Shown in pieces: positions 378 through 58,345 of a stretch of DNA of 64,000 nt (position 1 is the first letter of the stretch; each line of letters opens with the position of its first letter). Position numbers and translations under genes: made by a program. The stretch covers positions 5,570,743-5,634,742 of the forward strand of contig RQOL01000374.1 in assembly GCA_013076295.1 (NCBI GenBank). Reading direction: 5' to 3'. The notes under the pieces are model-generated. The model saw nothing but the letters and a program-made list of their open reading frames with translations, searched no databases and had not been told where the DNA came from. This DNA comes from Sanderia malayensis. Its lineage: Eukaryota > Cnidaria > Scyphozoa > Semaeostomeae > Pelagiidae.

Positions 378-927
378 ATGAATCGAGTATACAGAATTAA
401 TGTTGATGAAGTAGAAAGAAAGATGTGCATTCTATTTTAAAGTCAGAAGGTGAAGTTGACTGTATAAACAAGGCAAATTTAGAGGATGCTTATGTGTATC
501 TAAGAACGATAAGAGAGGTTGTGCTTGATAGAAATTACATTTCTCGATTTACAATCGACACTGACATGGTAAAAGAAACACATGAATTTATTTTACCTGA
601 ATATCATGGTAAATTTGCAAATAGTGTAAGATGTGCACGCATGAGTGAAACAGAGATAATAGAATATTGTAAACCTGATCAGATAGAAATTTTATTAAAC
701 CAATTAATAAAGAGGCAGCATTACTATAATCCAATAGAATTACAGCATTGTTATTATGGATTCACCCTTTTCCTGATGGAAATGGAAGGTTGGCGAAGTT
801 GTTGTATTATTATTTAACTGGAGATTTAATAGAGTGGAATCAGGATAAATTTTTAAGTGATATGATTAAAGTTCAAGCAGAAATTGTAGAAGAATTTACC
901 TCAAACACTTTCGAAAGAAAGTTCTAG
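378..927 (+). pseudogene. Fic-domain protein (AMPylation-type), frameshifted
   Basis: The third reading frame contains the complete Fic signature HPFPDGNGR at 763-789, followed by a leucine/tyrosine-rich helix and a stop at 925-927. The catalytic His and the phosphate-binding GNGR loop are present. The basic residue normally three positions after GNGR is Lys instead of Arg. Upstream, in a frame displaced by one base (about 425-745), lie the expected preceding elements: a YHGKFANS stretch in the position of the family's G-K-[YF]-R region, and near the N-terminus an SEGE stretch reminiscent of the family's inhibitory helix, which is only a near match. At least two single-base frame changes (about 415-430 and about 741-760) break the gene. 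Fic enzymes usually transfer AMP from ATP to Ser/Thr/Tyr hydroxyls of target proteins. A role against host targets is inference. The gene lies directly upstream of the heat-shock-element promoter of the next gene. Confidence 0.78.
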
Positions 928-1150
928 AACATTCGAACTTCGAATGCTAACACCACCTTTCAATAATAACTAGAAACTTCGAAGAAGGTTCTAGAACATT
1001 CGAACGATGAATCAGATCACAGAGATTTTTCAGAAGTTTCCAGAAGTTTCCAGAAGCTTCAGCCATCAGATCACAGAGATTTTTCAGAAGTTTCCAGAAG
1101 TTTCCAGAGCAGAAATCTCTGCAATCTGATTGGTTGATTTATACATAAAC
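909..1150 (+). promoter_or_regulatory. Heat-shock-element array with CCAAT and TATA boxes upstream of gene 1238
   Basis: Perfectly phased HSF-binding units (GAA and TTC alternating with two-base spacers) occur at 922-934 (three units), 984-1001 (four units), 1033-1060 (six units) and 1087-1104 (four units). They are followed by an inverted CCAAT box (GATTGG, about 1127-1133) and a TATA-like TTATACATAAA (about 1138-1148). The ATG of the next gene is about 90 bp downstream of the TATA. The order HSE, CCAAT, TATA, gene is that of a strong inducible polymerase II promoter. The HSE consensus is established for HSF1; binding here is inferred. Confidence 0.82.
1011..1107 (+). repeat. 54-bp tandem duplication of an HSE block
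   Basis: The segment starting ATCAGATCACAGAG at 1011 is repeated at about 1065. Each copy contains a run of GAA/TTC heat-shock units. The duplication doubles the number of HSF sites in this promoter. Confidence 0.85.
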
Positions 1151-2452: not shown

Positions 2453-3169
2453 ATGAGTTATGACTTGAGATTTAAAGCACCTTTTTCTCTGATTTTATCT
2501 GGAGTAAGCGGAAGCGGCAAAACTACTTGGGTAGAAAATCTATTTAAAAATTATAATAATATAATCGATGATGGCAGGCAATATCCCAATCTCATGTGGA
2601 TCTCAGGAACGAACCAGCCAGAGCTATTTGAGCGCATTAAAAAAAGTTTTGTTGGGAATTGTAGATTTATTACTGAATTACCTGAAAACTTGTACGAAGA
2701 AATCGAGAGGTCAGACAAAAGATTAACTATTGTTGTTGATGATCTAATGCATGAAATTGCAAACTTCAAAGATTTGGGAAAATTGTTCACAAAAGGAAGA
2801 TCTCATCTCAACATTAATGTTATTGTTATGATGCAAAATCCTTTCCCAAGAGGAACGGAAATGAGAAATTTGGCTCTCAATACTCAATATCAAGTTCTTT
2901 TCAAAAATCCTAGAGATAGAAGTCAAATTAGATTTCTCGCACGACAAATTATGCCTGCATCTCCTAAAACATTTCTTGACATTTATAATGATGCAACAGC
3001 AAGAATGTATGGATATCTACTCTGTGATTTCACCCAATCAATGAATGAAGATATGAGATTTCGAACAAATATTTTCCCTCATGAAGCTCCCATGCAGTGT
3101 ACAAGTCTAAAAAAGGTTATAAATAGCCATCTATATGTTTATGAAAACAGCAAAAATGACTTCTTTTGA
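2453..3169 (+). CDS. FtsK/HerA-type genome-packaging ATPase
   Basis: This is an intact 238-residue protein. The Walker A P-loop GVSGSGKTTW is at about residues 17-26 and Walker B TIVVDDL is at about residues 91-97, followed by the sensor-type Asn/Gln segment VIVMMQNPFP. Length and motif order match the Polinton/adintovirus packaging ATPase, which translocates DNA into the capsid. The start is the first ATG after the TATA motifs. A second TATAAATA directly abuts it, so the upstream box at 2399 is more likely the functional one. It overlaps the following small frame. This is one of the few genes of the element without a frameshift. Confidence 0.94.
   Translation: MSYDLRFKAPFSLILSGVSGSGKTTWVENLFKNYNNIIDDGRQYPNLMWISGTNQPELFERIKKSFVGNCRFITELPENLYEEIERSDKRLTIVVDDLMHEIANFKDLGKLFTKGRSHLNINVIVMMQNPFPRGTEMRNLALNTQYQVLFKNPRDRSQIRFLARQIMPASPKTFLDIYNDATARMYGYLLCDFTQSMNEDMRFRTNIFPHEAPMQCTSLKKVINSHLYVYENSKNDFF
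3118..3126 (+). promoter_or_regulatory. TATA box (TATAAATAG) inside the ATPase 3' end
   Basis: The sequence is identical to the box at 2399. It is located about 30 bp before the ATG at 3156, so it may drive the small basic gene there. Confidence 0.4.
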
Positions 3170-3359: not shown

Positions 3360-4411
3360 ATGAATCTAGAAAAGTTATATTCTGATCCTTCTGTTCCGGG
3401 TTCTCTTGGAGGTTTAGATAAAGCATATAGGAATTTAAAAAAGTAATTCCTAATCTAACAAGAAAAGATGTTAAAGAATGGAGTAAAACTAGTCTTGCAT
3501 ATTCATTGCACAGACCAAGTAGGAGAACTTTAAACGTGAGCGGATACTAACTAATAACATTGATTATTTATGGGAATGCGATCTTGTTGATATGGCATAT
3601 TTGAAAAAAGAAAACAACAACATTACATTTCTATTATGCTGTATTGATACTTTTAGCAAGTATGCTTGGGTAAAGCCTCTGAAAAGAAAAACAGGAAAAG
3701 AAATTGTCGATGCTTTTAAAGAAATTTTATTGGAAAGAAAGCCCAAAAAGGTACGATCTGATAAAGGTACTGAGTTTTTAAACAAAGAATTTCAAGCTTT
3801 GCTGAAGAAAAACGATATCGATTTTTACACTGCAAATAATGATGTAAAGGCCGCAATTGTGGAAAGATTCAATAGAACACTTAAAGGAAGAATGTATAGA
3901 TACTTCACAGCCAAAAATACATTAAGATATATTGATAATCTACAAGATTTTGTTGATTCTTACAACAATACCTATCATAGATCTATTGGTATGAGACCTT
4001 CTGAAGTTACTCCAAACAATGTGAGCACTGTCGAAAAAAGCTGTTTAAAAAAGAAACTAAAAAAATAAAAAGATCTTTAAAATTGGAGATTATGTAAGAC
4101 TGAGTTTGAAGAAGAGAATGTTTAAGAAAGGTTATTTACAAAATTATACTGAAGAAATATTCAAGATTAGCAAAGTATTTAAAGAAAGGTATCCAGTAAT
4201 GTATAAAATTGAAGATCTCCAAGATGAAGAGATAGATGATCGCTTCTATAAAGAGGAGCTACAACATGTGTATCTTCCAAAAACCTTCGTCGTTGAGCAA
4301 GTGTTGGAAACTAAGAAAAAAAGAGGTAAAAACTTCTATTTAATCAGGTGGAGAGGTTATCCTCCCCAGTTTGATGAGTGGGTAGCTGAAAGTCAATTAG
4401 AGACAATATGA
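3360..4411 (+). CDS. Polinton DDE integrase with C-terminal chromodomain, frameshifted
   Basis: This is a retroviral-type integrase that inserts the element. The catalytic triad is visible: first Asp in WECDLVDM (about 3577), second Asp in RSDKGTEF (about 3755), Glu in VERFNRT (about 3860). The C-terminal segment (4106-4411) holds an SH3-like stretch and then a chromodomain with the aromatic-cage context FYLIRWRGYPPQFDEW. The N-terminal part (3360-3590) is broken by two single-base shifts and there is another near 4065, so the protein is spread over at least three frames. Chromodomains on integrases are known to bind methylated histone H3 and steer insertion. The stop overlaps the next gene's ATG by four bases. 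Confidence 0.93.
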
Positions 4412-7317: not shown

Positions 7318-8623
7318 GTATAAAAACAGAATATACTGAGTGCCCTAGTGAGAGTTTAGATTTATTCAGTACACCGATAGTTCAAAGCGATGTTGATTAT
7401 TTTAAAGATGTTGAGTATTTTCCACAAACTGCTGCTCTCAATTCCTCAAAGCAGACTGTGTGTTTGACATTCCTGCCCAGCCAGATCATATGATTGATTT
7501 GAATCATTCTTATTTCGTCTCAACTCTTGCTATTAAGAAAGCAAATGGAGCTGATATTGGAAAAACAACTGCAGAATTTGTAGGAGTAGTAAATAACATT
7601 GGTCAATCTATGTGGAAGCAGATAGAGCTGGTTTTGAATGACACCCCTGTCACAGAAGCAAACGGGATGTATGCATACCAATCTTACTTGGAAACAATGT
7701 TGTCGTTTGACGAAACTAAAGCTGAAAACTATTTGAAAATGACAAACTGGGCCAGTGACACACTAGGTAAGGAAGATGCTGCTTACCCAACGAATACGGC
7801 ATCAGCAAAAATCAAGGATTGAACACAAGATCTGCGCCATTTGACGACAGCGAGAAAGTCAAAGTGTTAACAAAACCCCATGTTAACATTTGCAATCAAC
7901 TCAAATACCTACTACCTGGCGTACGTCTTCAATGGCGATTGAGTCCCAACAGTAATTTGTTTTGTTTAATGAGCAAAACTGGAACATCTCCACAGCTTTT
8001 CATTTATGAAGTGAAATTGATACTTCGTCATATACACGTTAAAGATGCAGTATTGAAAGGAATTGAAAGGACTCTGATGAAATCTCCAGCCATGTATCCT
8101 CTTTGTCAACCCCATATGACAAACTTTTTGGTCCCCGCTGCAACAACGAGCTGGGTTCAAGACAATGTGTTTAATGGAAAAGTACCAAACAGATTGTTTT
8201 TTGCCTTGTGGATAATTCTGCATTTAATGGATCTTCAGAACAAAACCCATTCAACTTTGTACATGGATCAGTTTCTGGCGTTCAAGTGACTGTTAACAAT
8301 CAAGAGGTCACTCCCCCTCTAGATTGGATTATGATGATAATGACTATTTCGATGCCTATAGCCGTCTGTTGACTACTCTGGGCAATTCAGCTAGTCTGGT
8401 TGATTATGAGAGATTCAATCAAGGATCAGCAATTTATGGTTTTGACTTGACACCAAAGGGAAATTGTGCAGATGAACAATACTTGCTTAAAAGAGAGGGT
8501 AACTTGAGAATAAGCATCAATTTTGCAACGGCTGTTGTAAGTTTGATGAATATTGTTGTTCTCGGAGAATTTGACAGAACAATTAAAATTGATAGTCATA
8601 AAAACATCATTCGTGATTGGTAA
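7314..8623 (+). CDS. Major capsid protein (hexon-like double jelly-roll), at least three frameshifts
   Basis: Four consecutive frame segments (about 7314-7465, 7460-7822, 7815-8215, 8215-8623) together match the animal Polinton/adintovirus hexon-type protein. Landmarks are an early IDLNHSYF strand, VGVVNNIGQSMWKQIEL, the LNDTPVTEANGMYAYQSYLE region, a LLPGVRLQWRL strand pair, and the C-terminal NLRISINFATA strand followed by the family's usual hydrophobic end. The length is about 435 residues, shorter than some relatives but in the range of Polinton capsid proteins. The stop overlaps the protease ATG (TAATG). All frame changes are one-base; no in-frame nonsense substitution was needed to explain them. 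Confidence 0.9.
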
Positions 8624-9084
8624 TGATGGATGATATAACAATCAATAACTTACTTCTGAAACATGAAAAGCTACCTTATTTCCATGGTGTATTTGGAAAA
8701 GATGAAATCAAAAACATCGATGTGCATTCACTGCCCTGCTCATTCATTTTCAATGAAGATAATTTTACTGGTAAAGGAACTCACTGGGTAGCCGTCTACA
8801 TTAGCGATGATGGCGTTTTGGATTTTTATGATTCGTTTGGTGAGCCTCCTATGCTGAAAGAATTTAAAAACTTCATTCATCCGTTCAAGCTCACTTACAA
8901 TAAAACTCAAGTTCAATCCTATGAGAGTGCGACTTGTGGACAACATTGCATGTTCTTCCTCATTAATAGAACAAAAAACGTTACAATGAACTCATTAATC
9001 AATAAATATTTTAATGTAAATGATAAGTTAAGTAATGATTTGTATGTTTACAATTATGTTAATAGAAGATATAGTTTAAAATAA
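8623..9084 (+). CDS. Adenain-like maturation cysteine protease
   Basis: This is an intact 153-residue protein. Catalytic His in THWVAVYI (about residue 48), acidic residue in LDFYDSFGEP (about residue 65), and the oxyanion Gln plus catalytic Cys in TCGQHCMFF (about residues 107-115) are in the correct order for adenovirus-type and Ulp1-related C5 proteases. The enzyme would process capsid precursors. The start at the ATG overlapping the capsid stop is preferred to the two upstream non-ATG codons. It ends convergent with the polymerase gene, overlapping its 3' end by about 30 bases. Confidence 0.93.
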   Translation: MMDDITINNLLLKHEKLPYFHGVFGKDEIKNIDVHSLPCSFIFNEDNFTGKGTHWVAVYISDDGVLDFYDSFGEPPMLKEFKNFIHPFKLTYNKTQVQSYESATCGQHCMFFLINRTKNVTMNSLINKYFNVNDKLSNDLYVYNYVNRRYSLK

Positions 9085-12000
9085 TGTTGAAAACTTAAAT
9101 GTTCAAATAATGTCTTTTTCTCAGTACTTTCTTCAGCAGCTTGCGCATTTTCTTGCAAATAATGCCCATATGGCAGTGTGTTAAAACCATTATCAAGAAT
9201 GTATCTCTTATCATCAAAAGAGCTCAGCGATTTCTTTGTTCTTTCTGTTGTGTAGATGGTATGATTGTGTGATTCAATATTACGCTGCCTGTGTGAATAG
9301 GTTTGCTGTTCTTTCAGACAATCTAGGTAATCTTCATGCTTTATTTGCTTCTTTACCACATCTTTTTTAATTCCTTTCGCTCTTTTGATTGTTTGCCCAT
9401 CATCGATTCTGAGGCTATACATCTTCGATCTCAATCCGACGAATTCTATCATTTTCCCACCACCGGAGCTCATCTTTCATTTTCCCAATAACTTTCCTTG
9501 TTTCTTACAGAGTAAATTTGGATGTTCTTATCATTAGTTTGCTGAAATCGAATCCATCTTCATGATCTTTCAATACTCTGTTAACTTGATCTTGAGACAT
9601 TGGTATTCATAGATGAAGCTATCAGTATCCATGTAGCATAGTTGAACGTTTGGAAGGTTTGGTTTTGCAAAGTTGTAGTGGAAATCATACATCAATGTCT
9701 GCTAATATCTAATATGCTGAACCAACATACATTGGCTTGTTGAGTTTAACTTTCCCAATCTTTTTCTCTACCAAAAGTGTATCTTCATTAATTTCAATTA
9801 CTTCCATAGAAACTTTGGATTTCTGACCCATCTTCTCAGGACTATACATCTGTGCAGATTTCAAAACGTCGATGATTTCTTACGTTTTTCCATCGTCTTT
9901 CCAAACACAGAAATTGTTCATCAGTTTGAACAGATCTTTTTTCAAAGTCGTTTCTTGCTTGAGTTCTCTTTTGAGTGTTGAAATCATAATATTTTTTTCA
10001 CCAAAAGTTTTGCTTGAATTCAATAATCTCATGAACTTTTGTTAGCTTCAAACCCAATTCCAAACACTGCTTCAAATTTCTTTCATGCATGGTGTATTCT
10101 TTTTTGTCATATAGATTTGGTATTAGCTTTGGTGTTGACTTAAACTTTTCCCCATAAGCTTGTCTTTGATATTTTGATAACATTTCTTCTTGAACTTGTA
10201 ATCTTTGTGGTGCTAATGGTAGATCTGCATGATGATCATGTAATCACTGGATATTCTAAGTCAACTTTGAGAATGTAGCCAATATCTTCATCAGATCTTG
10301 ACAACAAAGCGTCGATGTTTGTGTTTTTAATTTCTTCTTGTGTAAATTGTTTGAAACCACCATAAGGCATTGGCTGCGACATTGCCCCATCCATAGAGAT
10401 TGTTTGCATCTAAGTACATCAACGTGTTGTTTTCCGTCGATTCAGCATGGCGTTTCACTGCTATCGAAACACCCCCTCGAATACCATCTTCAATCATAAG
10501 GTGAATGTCCTTCTTTTCTTCAGATAGTAATTCTAGCTTTACACCAGTCATCTTCAACATTGCATCCCAAGCTAGTGAAGGAGCAGTTAGATAATGAGCA
10601 GGATCAAGCTTGTAGAATTTTAGACTCTGCTTTCTGAACGATTCAAATATATCAGCTAACAGCAGCACATCAGTTTTCAGATATAGCTCATGATAATCTT
10701 GAAAGGTCTGACAGTTGAAAAATTGCCAAACCTGTTGAGCATATGTATAATCTTCATCACTGATGCTGGAATCATAGAGTTTGTTGTAAAATGCTTCTTT
10801 TGGTGGTAGAGCTGTTTCTTGCATTTTTTCTATACTATCCACCCAGTCATAGGGATAAACACCTTTCCTTGTCAGCAAATCAAACGCTTTCTTGACATCT
10901 GCATCTTCTGCTTCTGTTAAAGCTCTCTTTGGTGGTATTTTCCAATTTCTATAATCCAAAACATCTTCATTTTTTAGCGGATCTTTGCATGCTACGCCCG
11001 GTTCAAACATGTTTTGACGTTCTCTTTCCAATTCTGTAACTCTTTCCCGTTCATTTCTAGGTATCTCAGGATATTGTTGTTGGGTGATCTCATCATGCAA
11101 GTATTTTTTCATAGATATGAAGTCTTCTTTCGGCAGGTTGTTGGCTAGTGTTGCTAAGCTGGTGCTTAAAAATGCGAATGAATCAATGTATTTGATTCCA
11201 TTAGTATTGGTATTTCTACCTTCTTCATTTTCTTCAGAATAACCACCAATCTGTGCAGTCATGATCTTTTCTTTCGAATTGGCGATGATCTTTGCATTTC
11301 TACCATTCAAATTCTTCAGAATATGATGCATATCATATCCTTTTAGATTGTGAAAGACGATCGGGATGGTGTGATAGTTTGCTGCTATATCCAGATGTTT
11401 GAAGTTGCAATGCTTGCAAGCTGGACCTCTGTATTTTCCGGTAATGTGACAATGATCTCTGACTTTTTGTCTATCATTATCATTGAATAGTTGATTGCAA
11501 CAATAGCAATGCATAGCCCCAGCATGTTCCGCATTTTCTTCCGGTGTTAATCTAATCATTGGCATGGTTTTCTTGAATACTGTTCGTATTTCTTCATTTA
11601 GCTTATCTAAACTATTCATAAACACCTCCATGCAATCTTCTCCGGTATAACATTCCAACGGTCGTTGCCACCTATCATCGATTGACGTGGCGTAAATACA
11701 ATAACTGATTGGTTTGTGTTCTTGATAAGCAGCTCCCTTGTTTGAACTTTCCAAAATAGATTCAGTATCTGCATATATGATGAATGGTAGCATGCATTGG
11801 TTCTTAAAATGTTCAAACTTTAATTCTCCGTCTTTGGGATATTCAACACCTTGGAAGATTTTGATTTTCTGACATAATGTTTTATGTTTATCTAGATTTT
11901 CTTGACTTGTGCATGATGACAGGCATAGCGGACAGTAAAAACGTTTTCCACGATATTTATGTCCAGGACGTCCGGCCAACAAACGACTCATACTTTTAAT

Positions 12001-12929
12001 CCAGCAGTAGTGATTCTCATCATCATCATTAATTATTAGTAGCAAATCCACATGCTTTCCAAGCTCTTTTTTCGCTATTCTTACTGGTATAATTTCATCA
12101 TCTTCATTTAAATAGATGTTGATTGAAATGTTGTTGTTTATTTCGAATGTATCAATCATCTTTTTATCTTGCACTTTTACTGGATATTTCAATCCCTCGC
12201 AGTTAAGCTCGTTCAAGTACTGTTGATACTTTGCGACTCTTTGTGGATGTTTTGATTGTGGATGTAGTGCAGATAGAATTGCCCAGATGAAGCATTTATC
12301 ATCATCGTTTTGCACGTTAATGACTGCTTTTTGTTTTTGATGTTGGCGGGTAGCTGCAAATATTTTTTACCTTTGATTGCTTCATAGTCGAACATCTTCA
12401 CTAGCAGTTTGATATACTTTGTAAATATCCAGCCGCTTCCATTTTCTGTAAATTCATCTATGTCATTTTTTAACTTTCTAATGGCGTCGTCTATTTGGTC
12501 TTCAAGCTCTTCGATATCTTCAATCTCTGATCGCAGCAGTGAGTAGATAGCAGATCTGAATACTGGCGGTGGATCTGATATGATATCACCGATCGGCTTA
12601 TGAAATTCTACTTCGAGAACAATATAATACTTTATCCCTTGCTTATGTGTATATATCTCACTCATAAGTTCGCGAATGGTGTGCTGCTTGATCTTTTTCA
12701 TATTTTCAATATCCTCTTCCTTAGTATATATTTTAAATGCTTTATCATCTATCTTTTTCTTTTTCCTACCTTCGCCAACTAATTTGGGTGGCGATTGCAC
12801 ATTATGAGATGTTCGCTTGTGCGCCATTAGATTCGCCATTCTATTGAATACTTTCCCACATTGATAGCAAGAGATTTTTCTTTTCTTGCTATTATTAGCA
12901 GCTGCGCTTTCTTCGTGTGATCTCTTCAT
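9054..12929 (-). CDS. Protein-primed family-B DNA polymerase, multiple frameshifts
   Basis: The start MKRSHEES (ATG at 12929) follows a TATA by about 40 bp. The N-terminus has a C2H2 zinc finger (CYQCGKVFNRMANLMAHKR). After a shift near 12,315 come NDDDKCFIWAILSALHP, a second Cys/His cluster, exonuclease motif I FIIYADTES, an HNH/endonuclease-VII-like Cys-rich insert (CYCCNQLF, CHITGKYRG), exonuclease II VFHNLKGYDMHHIL and III YLKTDVLLLADIF. Polymerase motif A is MYLDANNLYGW (about 10,390), a KPMYVGSAY region lies near 9,720, motif C CYMDTDSF is at about 9,610-9,635, and the C-terminal EFVGLRSKMYSL is at about 9,440. At least five one-base shifts occur after motif A and in the C-terminal third. 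The enzyme would replicate the linear element from protein-primed ends. Confidence 0.94.
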
Positions 12930-12965
12930 GACTAGATCGTGATTTGAAGTGATTTTATTCCGAGA

Positions 12966-13081
12966 ATGATTTATATACATAAATCAACCAACCAGATTGT
13001 AGAGATTTCTGCTTCTGGAAACTTCTTTATGACGTCATAGAACTTTCTAGAACTTTCCCACAACTTACTTCTAGAAACTTC
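12966..13081 (-). promoter_or_regulatory. Heat-shock-element promoter of the DNA polymerase gene
   Basis: Reading towards the gene (minus strand), the region has phased GAA/TTC units at 13,069-13,081 (three), 13,040-13,057 (four, around TTCTAGAA) and 13,013-13,025 (three), a perfect CRE/ATF palindrome TGACGTCA at 13,030-13,037 between them, an inverted CCAAT-type GGTTGG stretch (about 12,985-12,995) and a TATATAAAT box (about 12,969-12,977). The downstream part is an inverted copy of the promoter at 1087-1150. Confidence 0.8.
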
Positions 13082-13111
13082 TGAAAAGTCCCTGTGATCT
13101 GATTGGTTGAT

Positions 13112-13235
13112 TGCTCCTGGAAACTTCTAGAAGTTTCTGATTTCTCATGACAGAGATTTGACGCGTACATTCGAACGTCGCATTCGAAAGTTTCTGATTG
13201 GTTCTTTGAATTCAATCTCGAGCCGAGAACGTTCA
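13112..13235 (+). promoter_or_regulatory. Heat-shock-element promoter of the divergent gene 13306
   Basis: Four perfect phased units lie at 13,120-13,137 (GAA-ac-TTC-ta-GAA-gt-TTC). They are followed by TTCGAA boxes (about 13,170-13,188) and an inverted CCAAT (TGATTGG, about 13,194-13,201). This side shares the intergenic region with the polymerase promoter but has its own HSE cluster. The copy at 13,957 repeats it. Confidence 0.72.
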
Positions 13236-13305
13236 ATTATAGTTCATCTAAATTAAAGAAGTGACTTTAGATAATTGACCAGACATCTCATATCAAACTG
13301 ATAAA

Positions 13306-13779
13306 ATGTTGAAGGCTTCCCATGCTGCGTTGATGGATATCGAATATATACAAGTGTCGAATAGTCACAAATGTGTGAGAAAAGTTGGAATAATGCTCGC
13401 GGATGGAATAACTTGTTTCGAATACGAATTTATTCCTTGTGTCAAATATAGACTCTTAACAGAAAAGTGGAAACGAACATACCGGTATTGTAGGGAAAAG
13501 ATTCATCATCTGAACTATTACCCTGAAGATGCTTCATTTTCTTGTGAAGATGCAATACCCATGATTAAAGACGTCCTAGAGTGGAATGGTGTGCACATGG
13601 TATTATATAAAGGGGGCGATATTGAGCGGGCGACCTGCGAACAGATTAATATGCCTTCGAAAAATATTGAAGAATTTGGGGCCCCCAAGGCAACGTCTCA
13701 TGATCCGTTAAAAGAGTTGAAAGAACATTACATATATTTGAACAATTGTATACTTTTAGATGATGATTACTTTAATTGA
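13306..13779 (+). CDS. Small Polinton accessory protein, DEDD-exonuclease-like pattern
   Basis: This is an intact 157-residue frame starting MLKASHAALMDIEYIQ. The D-I-E near the N-terminus, two following beta-strand segments (VGIMLADGITCFEYEFIP), a central hydrophobic MVLYKGGDIE segment and a C-terminal SHDPLKELKEHYIYL resemble the layout of DEDD-type RNase H-fold nucleases (D-x-E, then a late H/D-containing helix). I regard this as suggestive only. It is transcribed divergently from the polymerase under an HSE promoter, so it is probably an early gene; a TATAAAATAA (about 13,868-13,877) and AT-rich sequence follow. Confidence 0.5.
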   Translation: MLKASHAALMDIEYIQVSNSHKCVRKVGIMLADGITCFEYEFIPCVKYRLLTEKWKRTYRYCREKIHHLNYYPEDASFSCEDAIPMIKDVLEWNGVHMVLYKGGDIERATCEQINMPSKNIEEFGAPKATSHDPLKELKEHYIYLNNCILLDDDYFN

Positions 13780-13956: not shown

Positions 13957-14066
13957 AGATTCTAGAAGTTTCTGCTTTTTCATGACAGAGATTTCACGCG
14001 TACATTCGAACGCCGCAATCGAAAGTTTCTGATTGGTTCTTTGAATTCAATCTCGAGCCGAGAACA
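13957..14066 (+). repeat. Second copy of the HSE/CCAAT promoter repeat
   Basis: About 110 bp is nearly identical to 13,127-13,235, including the TTCTAGAAGTTTC heat-shock units, the TTCGAA boxes, the TGATTGG and the TCGAGCCGAGAAC end. No gene follows. It either marks the right edge of the element or is the promoter of a lost gene. Confidence 0.8.
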
Positions 14067-14070
14067 TGAA

Positions 14071-14750
14071 TTTGCCAGTTCCTCGATATTTTTGTGTTTT
14101 CTTGCGATTTATTTAACAAATTTCTATCATCTTATAAGTGCATGAAAAATATGAAACAATTCATTCAATATAATCAAGAGATTTTCTTTTTATTGCTGAA
14201 AAAATCTTTTCATAAACAAAACCGGTTTTTAGTTATTAAGCTTTTTATGGTTTTTTATCAGCTTTGGCGATGTTTTGCAACTTTAAACTAACTTTCCACA
14301 ACCTGTCGTTTTCGATTATTTTTTTACTGTTCATGCTCTATTCAATTCTCGAAGACTCTCGCGCATGCGCGATCTTAACACATTCTACTGCGCATGCGTG
14401 GGCCAGGTGGGCCAGGACACCTACTTCATCTCCTACTGGGGAAGTAAGCAAATGAAAGAGATGGAAACCCTTTAAGCTGACCTGAAGCGAAAATTTTTGT
14501 TTTTGCCAAGAAAAAGCACAATTCAAATTTCCAGTTATCCACTAATTTCTATGATTGGATTGGACGATGGCGTCATTTTGTTCCAAAAAAGAGAAGGCAT
14601 ATAAAGTTCACTAACATTCCAGAGGGAAAATTTTGCACCAGGTCACCCGTAGAACATAAAGTTTAGACATAAAGCGATAAATGCTAAGAAGAACCGATTC
14701 TTTTTATCGATTGTTGCTGTCAAACAATGGCTGTGTGATGTGGAATTAAT
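14071..14750. other. Gene-free stretch with two NRF-1-type palindromes
   Basis: I see no credible gene here. The notable features are GCGCATGCGC at 14,361-14,370 and TGCGCATGCG at 14,389-14,398, both matching the animal NRF-1 site. They are followed by a repeated GGGCCAGG motif and an AT-rich interval. Confidence 0.45.
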
Positions 14751-25408: not shown

Positions 25409-25614
25409 CATTATAGGTCAGATATTGATGTTTTCTCAAGTCCAAAATGACTTGTTGGCATCAGACATTGCAAAATTTGAAAATGGAGGTCTTTGCACAT
25501 TTCGAATGAGGATTTTTAAAATTTACAATTATTTCCATTAATCACATTTACGGTTGAGAAAGAATATAGATTTATACACTTTGTTTCTTTGTGGTTAAAA
25601 ACACATTACACTTT

Positions 25615-26970
25615 TGCATGACACGAACTTTGTCAGCATTTGGTAACCAGGTCCGTTAAAACAAGAGGGACAATTTGCATGCATATTACAGGCGTTGTGT
25701 AACAAGTTATTATATGGACACTTTTGCATGACACGACTTTGCAGGATTTGTAACCAGCCCATAAAAAAAGGGACATTTTGCATGCGATATAAAGGCGATT
25801 GTGTAACAAGTGTATTTCATATGGGGGACACTTTTGCATGACACGAACTTTGTCAGGCATTTTGGTAACCAGGCCCGAATAAAACAGAGGGGACATTTTT
25901 GCATGCAATTTATAGGCGATTGAAACAAGTATCATATGGGGACACTTGCATGACACGGTCAGGCATTTGTAACAGGCAAAAACCAGAGGGACATGCATGA
26001 AATCACTAGGCGATTGTGTAACAAGTGTATTCATATGGGGGACACTTTTGGCATAGACACCGTAACTTTGTCAGGCATTTTGGTCACCCAGGGCCCGTAA
26101 ACCAGAGGGACATTTTTGCATGCGATTAATTACCCTAGGCGGGCTGTGAACAAAGTGTATTTCATATGGGGACACTTTTGCATGACACGAACTTTGTCAG
26201 GCATTTTCGGGTAACCACGGCCCATAAAAACCAGGAGGGGACATTTTTCATGCGATAATTCACTAGGCGATTGATTGTAAACAAGTGGTATTCATATGGG
26301 GGACACTTTTGCATGACTACGAACTTTGTCAGGCATTTTGGTACCCCCGGGCCCATTAGAAAACAGAGGGACATTTTTGCATGCGATTTATTTACTAGGC
26401 GATTGTGTAACAAGTGTATTTCATATGGGGGACACTTTTGCATGACACGAACTTTGTCAGGCATTTTGGTAACCAGGCCCGTAAAACAAGAGGGGACATT
26501 TTTGCATGTGATTTATTTACTAGGCGATTGTGTAACAAGTGTATTTCATATGGGGGACACTTTTGCATGACACGAACTTTGTCAGGCATTTTGGTAACCA
26601 GGCCCGTAAAACAAGAGGGGACATTTTTGCATGCGATTTATTTACTAGGCGATTGTGTAACAAGTGTATTTCATATGGGGGACACTTTTGCATGACACGA
26701 ACTTTGTCAGGCATTTTGGTAACCAGGCCCATAAAACCAGAGGGGACATCTTTGCATGCGATATATTCACTAGGCGATTGTGTAACAAGTGTATTTCATA
26801 TGGGGGACACTTTTGCATGACACGAACTTTGTCAGGCATTTTGGTAACCAGGCCCATAAAACCAGAGGGGACATTTTTGCATGCGATTTATTTACTAGGC
26901 GATTGTGTAACAAGTGTATTTCATATGGGGGACACTTTTGCATGACACGAACTTTGTCAGGCATTTTGGT
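25615..26970. repeat. Approximately 125-bp satellite array, about eleven units
   Basis: The unit contains TTGTGTAACAAGTGTATTTC, GGGGGACACTTTTGCATGAC and a TTTGTCAGGCATTTTGGTAA block. The last four to five units (from about 26,400) are nearly identical with an exact 125-bp period. The first six or seven are shorter and riddled with one- to three-base gaps and insertions. Long open frames on both strands inside the array are by-products of the repeat, not genes. The final unit breaks into a GC-rich Harbinger-end-like sequence at about 26,970. Confidence 0.96.
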
Positions 26971-57637: not shown

Positions 57638-58345
57638 ACTGCCGGTAATGGAAAACAAAAATCAGCTTCAGGAAACATTTACTTACATTATTTAAAATCA
57701 TGTTTGCTAGAATACCAGCAAAATTCTGAATTCACCATGGTAACTGTTCCAAAATCAACCTCAAAATACCTTCCAGAAGGTTCGATAGAGAAATTTCAGC
57801 GGCAAGGATGCAAGATTGAACAATGACTTGATATAAATCTTTGTACTATTTTTATTCACTTATTATTTGTGTAATTTCCATAAAATGTCATCGTTTGTTT
57901 TTGCTGCACGCCAACTCTCTCTTTTTGACTCAGACTCAGAACCTGCCGCTTGGGCTGTTTCTGCACAGTGGTGTGTTGTTGTTCCAGTGTGTGCGAAATT
58001 GACTGGACGATGAATGATGAACAAAAGCAACCAAAGCATTGAATGGTAACCAAAAGCCTATAAACTTTACATACAAGCCAAGCCACGAAGTGAATCGGTT
58101 CCACGAGCCAGATATGGAGGATTGAGGTAGCCATATAATCTTTTCATGGTTGGCATTGGATTTCCCCCAAAAAGTTCCAGAATATTGATTAACTTTCAAT
58201 AAAATTTATCCAGTGGATTCCGTATTCTGACTCGCTTTATAACCTAACCTCATAAGAAAATTAATTAGGCCACTTCACGTTGTAAAAAGACAACAACCAC
58301 AACATCCCAAACCCACAATAACGCCATGAAAATGGGAAAGAAAGA
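57638..58345. other. No gene seen
   Basis: Non-coding DNA downstream of the MULE gene. The minus-strand frames here have no domain. Confidence 0.45.

Follow-up and report, generated by a model that had tools for sequence, protein, structure and literature searches.

What turns on a Polinton is, to our knowledge, an open question, which is raised in a concrete form by the element lying at the left end of the window analysed here, a stretch of 64,000 nucleotides from the scyphozoan Sanderia malayensis. An earlier note on this DNA had pointed out four clusters of alternating GAA and TTC triplets upstream of the gene at 1238, which were read as heat-shock elements (HSEs) for the heat-shock factor (HSF), and had proposed that the element is awakened by heat or proteotoxic stress.

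Genes of the Element

The gene content supports the assignment of the element as an adintovirus-like Polinton/Maverick, in agreement with the identity given by the earlier note: an integrase and an A32/FtsK-type ATPase score over their cut-offs, and a protein-primed polB and terminal inverted repeats are found in relatives. The rightward unit begins with a gene on the forward strand (1238-1543), which is open for only 101 aa in this copy, compared with 368 aa in L006. It is followed on the same strand by the A32/FtsK-type packaging ATPase (2453-3169; Pox_A32, 28.9 bits against a cut-off of 22.8), for which Drosophila-associated adintovirus 2 provides a named relative with 42% identity. ATPase queries against viral contigs, made with the single sequence and with a 16-sequence alignment, found zero relatives. 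Further downstream, also on the forward strand, are a retrovirus-like rve integrase core (3592-4068; 38.6 bits, over the cut-off) and a chromodomain frame behind it (4106-4411; PF00385, 36.5 bits, over the cut-off), which may aim integration at certain chromatin. A candidate major capsid gene occupies more than one forward frame at 7460-8289 (Capsid_N, 16.5 bits against a cut-off of 24, in one broken piece), and a candidate adenovirus-type protease is placed at 8617-9084 on the forward strand (Peptidase_C5, 18.6 bits, below the cut-off of 21.3).

The leftward unit is represented by the pieces of polB at 10327-12929 on the reverse strand. Two of its frames in the window were scanned against Pfam and gave no polymerase match, one of them giving Endonuclease_7; DNA_pol_B_2 was found over the cut-off downstream of the polB starts of the same family (family A) on contigs C866, C829 (two) and C428. 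Several of the genes are broken in the window copy, in which the promoter arrays are kept. Directly upstream of the left promoter, a Fic-domain gene with a broken frame lies at 378-927 on the forward strand (longest open piece 425-817). It is open for 183 aa in L006 and L008, the latter version scoring 37.3 bits with Pfam Fic, over the cut-off, and by its motif HPFPDGNGRLAK the product is a possible AMPylase.

The Left Promoter

The scan for perfect alternating GAA/TTC units at a 5-bp pitch, in which runs of at least three units were counted, located four arrays in front of the first gene: array 1 with four units (917-934), array 2 with four (984-1001), array 3 with six (1033-1060) and array 4 with four (1087-1104). 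The clusters reported earlier are thus real, as are the counts given for the last three; the run that had been described as three units at 922-934 is a four-unit array starting at 917. A 44-bp module occurs twice in this promoter (1011-1054 and 1065-1108), array 3 starting inside its first copy and array 4 lying within the second, and a period-10 repeat was called at 1027-1108. Array 1 shares positions with the final codons of the Fic gene (910-927), so that its retention may be partly due to coding.

Scoring against shuffled controls, which had been recommended in the earlier note, placed the arrays far beyond chance. Their total of 18 perfectly phased units in runs of at least three was matched by none of 5000 dinucleotide shuffles of 909-1104, among which a run of at least three units appeared in 141, one of at least four in four and a six-unit run in none. 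Over the 64-kb window, ten runs of at least three units were counted, as compared with an average of 1.15 for 200 shuffled windows; six of the runs have at least four units, and any run of that length was present in 6 of the 200 shuffles. Nine of the ten arrays are inside the Polinton element, and the sole outside run is at 57771.

Between the arrays and the first gene, an inverted CCAAT box (ATTGG) is located at 1129-1133 on the reverse strand. The corresponding ATTGGTTGA is present in 38 of 40 copies and absent only from the partial matches L046 and L056, both of which end short of it. A TATA-like box follows at 1140-1147 on the forward strand, 36 bp from the nearest HSE array; other copies have variable TA-rich forms, a TA-rich TATA-like stretch being found after ATTGGTTGA in 38 of the 40 left copies, with the other two being partial matches. 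The forward TCAGTCG at 1173-1179, 33 bp past the start of the TATA-like box, is presumably an initiator-like motif, and the stretch containing it, TCAGTCGTG, is retained in 35 of 40 copies and missing from five, of which two are partial matches.

A Second Promoter Facing the First

The earlier proposal of a promoter built from arrays holds for the left set, but a second HSE promoter, which faces the left one from upstream of the leftward polB and contains four further arrays, a CRE and a TATA box, had been overlooked. The polB gene likely starts at 12929 (MKRSHEES), since several homologues of a second PolB family (family B) align from residue 17 and a methionine is encoded at 12929, which places the promoter at about 12930-13240; the mechanical start of the open reading frame at 12980 was rejected because that ATG falls in the TATA box. 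The arrays comprise three units at 13013-13025, four at 13040-13057, three at 13069-13081 and four at 13120-13137. Between the first two is a perfect TGACGTCA (13030-13037), which we take to be a CRE and which is present in 34 of 39 other copies. The TATA box lies at 12971-12981 on the reverse strand, 32 bp from the nearest array, and TATATAA is found in 39 of 39 other copies, its distance from the gene-side end of the stretch being 15-38 bases.

Across both promoters, eight arrays of three to six units follow the HSE grammar of at least three inverted nGAAn units at a 5-bp pitch. The two promoters share short inverted stretches (40 bp at 90% and 38 bp at 92%), while their arrays are mostly of different sequence with different spacers. 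Transcription would presumably start near 1173 in the rightward and near 12945 in the leftward direction. A 106-bp piece of the polB promoter including part of an HSE array (13125-13230) is duplicated with 95% identity at 13960-14065, where a three-unit array lies at 13960-13972; the copies are 835 bp apart, with a small ORF (13306-13779) between them.

Retention of the Arrays in Other Copies

The left-promoter query gave 56 match rows with 40 of 191 candidates scored, which were read as 40 places including the window. At least three arrays were present in all 39 other places, ranging from three arrays with 12 units (L011) to eight arrays with 30 units (L055), the commonest numbers being five (19 places) and six (8 places). 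When up to four substitutions were allowed, the HSE module was counted once in 5 of the 40 left promoters including that of the window, twice in 22, three times in 12 and four times in one. For the polB promoter, 50 rows were obtained with 40 of 396 candidates scored, and all 39 other places were fetched; their last 240 bases contain four arrays in 32 places, three in 6 and two in one, and with up to 200 bp more upstream sequence the number is two to six. The earlier note had named copies lacking the phased units as evidence against its reading, and this is answered by the arrays kept in 39 of 39 left and 39 of 39 polB places scored, which, owing to shared descent, do not amount to 39 independent cases. 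Some copies may be haplotigs; L001, for instance, matches the window at 100% identity over 3.1 kb.

The survey was extended to family B, the PolB proteins of which have about 35-44% identity to those of family A. The matches listed comprise 23 distinct places, and the upstream sequence of 20 of them was examined. Runs of at least three units were found upstream in 10 of the 20 loci, against a shuffle mean of 0.75 and a maximum of 5 (200 shuffles), and because these loci are mostly related the figure represents a few lineages rather than ten cases. One locus, L112, has six arrays, and the mutually related L110, L113 and L115 have no run of at least three units upstream. Moreover, the family-A left promoter and a family-B polB promoter (L101, 1140-1215) have in common a 76-bp piece with 86% identity, which lies at 930-1004 in the window. 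Sharing of this piece by two families at roughly 40% PolB identity would be consistent with either an exchange of promoters or strong constraint.

Arrays in the Host Genome and the hsp70 Promoter

A five-unit pattern gave 93 matches genome-wide (50 forward and 43 reverse), compared with three (one and two) for the reversed control. Eighty-three of the 93 rows were typed, the ten opposite-strand overlaps being left out, and collapsing within 600 bp resulted in 74 arrays. Forty-one of these are at, near or resembling family-A promoters: 26 lie within 700 bp of left-promoter matches, one in a polB promoter and eight at up to 25 kb from a family-A polB, and six have the same array sequence by eye. 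Another repeat, GAAATTTCATGAAATTTCATGAA, accounts for 15 of the 74 (G000 C44:19711, locus L137, and 14 other places). Identical five-unit arrays were also noticed in a set of four (G000 C434:72593, 93552 and 110640, and C426:76371) and in a set of three (G000 C815:1416234, 1423278 and 1432886).

The remaining arrays include that of the host hsp70 gene and one on C569, the latter preceding an hsp70-family exon match by about 100 bp; none of three HSP20 matches was near a five-unit array. The hsp70 gene is uninterrupted (C405:443797-445614, a 632-aa frame) and carries four arrays in the roughly 500 bp that precede its start codon, one of them with five units, together with CCAAT and TATA-like boxes. 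Among at least 120 database matches to this hsp70, from the best 7991 candidates, the closest listed is a EukProt entry with 94% identity; of the named entries listed that cover the full query, the closest is the jellyfish Rhopilema esculentum with 78%, and a bee has 77% over 96% of the query. Its promoter thereby has the same components as the Polinton promoters, namely several HSE arrays, a CCAAT box and a TATA-like box near the start. Capture of the promoter from the host hsp70 was considered and rejected, blastn at E 1e-3 detecting no homology to either Polinton promoter. Five matches to the HSF DNA-binding domain were found in the host, two of them equal-scoring and one with internal stops. 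From these matches and the hsp70 design, it follows that the host has both the factor and this promoter grammar.

Proposed Mechanism and Alternative Explanations

Judging from the DNA itself, it is probable that both main promoters of the element are constructed from HSE arrays with CCAAT/TATA boxes, through which host HSF would drive both units in a stress-inducible manner. HSF1 trimers are reported to require three or more units (PMC9157408), and host HSF would most likely bind the arrays as stacked trimers. Proteotoxic stress, or a cell with active HSF, would then switch on both units together, the rightward one supplying the first gene, ATPase, integrase, capsid and protease and the leftward one polB, and such induction might lead to replication or transposition. 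A weak lead toward a stress response is provided by a sea anemone, in which a Polinton-2_PH-like transcript is listed among the transposon transcripts changed at low pH (PMC6505742).

It is alternatively conceivable, albeit unlikely, that HSF uses these sites during unstressed development, for example in the germ line or embryo, so that development and not heat would set the timing of the element. HSFs also have non-stress roles, and one paper on HSF5 reportedly concerns germ cells; more than one HSF-domain gene is present in the host, and the combination of CRE and CCAAT boxes suggests mixed inputs. Nevertheless, long perfect arrays such as those found here are a typical feature of heat-inducible promoters, and the host hsp70 shares the same array design, which favours induction by stress.

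A quite improbable explanation is that the arrays are iterons, bound by a DNA-binding protein of the element itself for replication or packaging, so that the likeness of these palindromic repeats to HSEs is a coincidence. Such a protein might be PolB, whose N-terminus gave a C2H2 zinc-finger match (24.0 bits, below the cut-off of 25.2), and the tandem, symmetric build of the arrays would suit this role. In both promoters, however, a TATA-like box lies 32-36 bp downstream of the nearest array, the pitch is that of the host hsp70 arrays, and the spacer bases vary between arrays while GAA/TTC is constant, all of which argue against iterons.

Whether the cores are conserved beyond their surroundings was assessed for each promoter. 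In the polB promoter, the conservation was 0.986 for array cores, 0.968 for spacers and 0.929 for other positions, with a permutation value of 0.0012 that overstates the result since neighbouring positions are not independent. The left promoter, the alignment of which is made unsure by the repeated modules, displayed no excess conservation of the cores, which are slightly less conserved than their neighbours (core 0.976, spacer 0.988, other 0.991; permutation 0.95), and its distal two arrays alone gave no clear excess (core 0.993 versus other 0.991; permutation 0.25). Conservation of sequence consequently lends weak backing to function, and in the polB promoter only. The least probable explanation, a passive 10-bp tandem expansion by slippage of TTTCCAGAAG that would generate phased units without function, could draw on this lack of excess in the left promoter, on the period-10 repeat at 1027-1108 and on a module number that differs from one to four between copies, but arrays 1 and 2 and the four polB arrays are outside that repeat and have other sequences, and at least two arrays are kept in 78 of 78 other promoter places, though by common descent.

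Comparison with Known Systems

HSF sites are known from other mobile elements and from viral promoters. COPIA elements of Brassicaceae, including ONSEN/ATCOPIA78, are described as carrying HSF sites in their LTRs, which were gained repeatedly, the strong site of ONSEN having evolved via duplication of a proto-element (PMC5059998). As described there, they resemble the Polinton in holding the sites in their own promoter and in the part played by duplication, the HSE module being present one to four times in the Polinton; they differ in being plant LTR retrotransposons with sites in the LTR, whereas the Polinton, a virus-like DNA element, has them in two promoters that face each other. In Caenorhabditis elegans, Helitrons are reported to hold 61.4% of 18,766 HSEs (PMC6927752). 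They are likewise DNA transposons with most HSEs of a genome, to be set beside 41 of the 74 five-unit arrays for the Polinton, but the effects reported for them are on nearby host genes (PMC6927752), whereas the HSEs of the Polinton are located at the core promoters of its own genes. Among viruses, the EBV Qp and HIV-1 LTR promoters are stated to carry HSF1 sites (PMC9157408). The use of host HSF1 sites by a virus promoter is the common point, which for the Polinton is a prediction; on that account these are human viruses, while the Polinton is an endogenous element with multi-array promoters on both transcription units.

Among the literature matches listed, no title or abstract opening reports HSEs in Polintons or Mavericks, in line with the statement of the earlier note that it knew of no such report. 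A mobile element with HSEs is of a known kind, and by this search the element class and the two-promoter wiring appear to be new. The hsp70-like promoters on both gene blocks offer a cheap and direct test of the timing of Polinton expression and of inducible-virus behaviour.

A bolder interpretation, which is tentative and falls short of being probable, is that the element is a stress-inducible animal provirus, with polB and the packaging, capsid and integration units wired to HSF and with proteotoxic stress as the induction signal. Proteotoxic stress would then be the counterpart of DNA damage, which induces many prophages. If so, expansion of the HSE module would tune the responsiveness of each copy, and Polintons, by virtue of their many copies, would be the principal contributor of strong HSEs to the host genome, across which their promoters would spread strong stress-response elements.

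Ends of the Element and Its Relatives

The right end of the element is a 148-bp stretch at 14290-14437, which occurs as inverted pairs on other contigs. Homology ends at 14437 in L030-L032 and at 14441 in L033-L035, L036 being rearranged. The left terminal repeat of the window copy was not found in the 9 kb of left flank, which includes a masked stretch. In the search with the 148-bp end, for which 40 of 255 candidates were scored, one inverted pair is separated by 17.2 kb on C878, where a polB promoter lies 1 kb inside it, and another by 17.1 kb on C829. Some relatives are concluded from this to reach a length of about 17 kb, which is inside the 15-25 kb expected of a Polinton, and to be bounded by terminal inverted repeats. 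The spacing of other pairs is 4.0-7.4 kb or, on C317, 22.5 kb; these are probably deleted or nested copies. On C569, the 148-bp end is found in inverted orientation at a distance of 4.6 kb upstream from a left promoter. Outside the element, the window also contains a tandem array (25608-26970), in which a 125-bp unit is repeated 7.6 times at 26005-26970 and longer periods begin at 25608.
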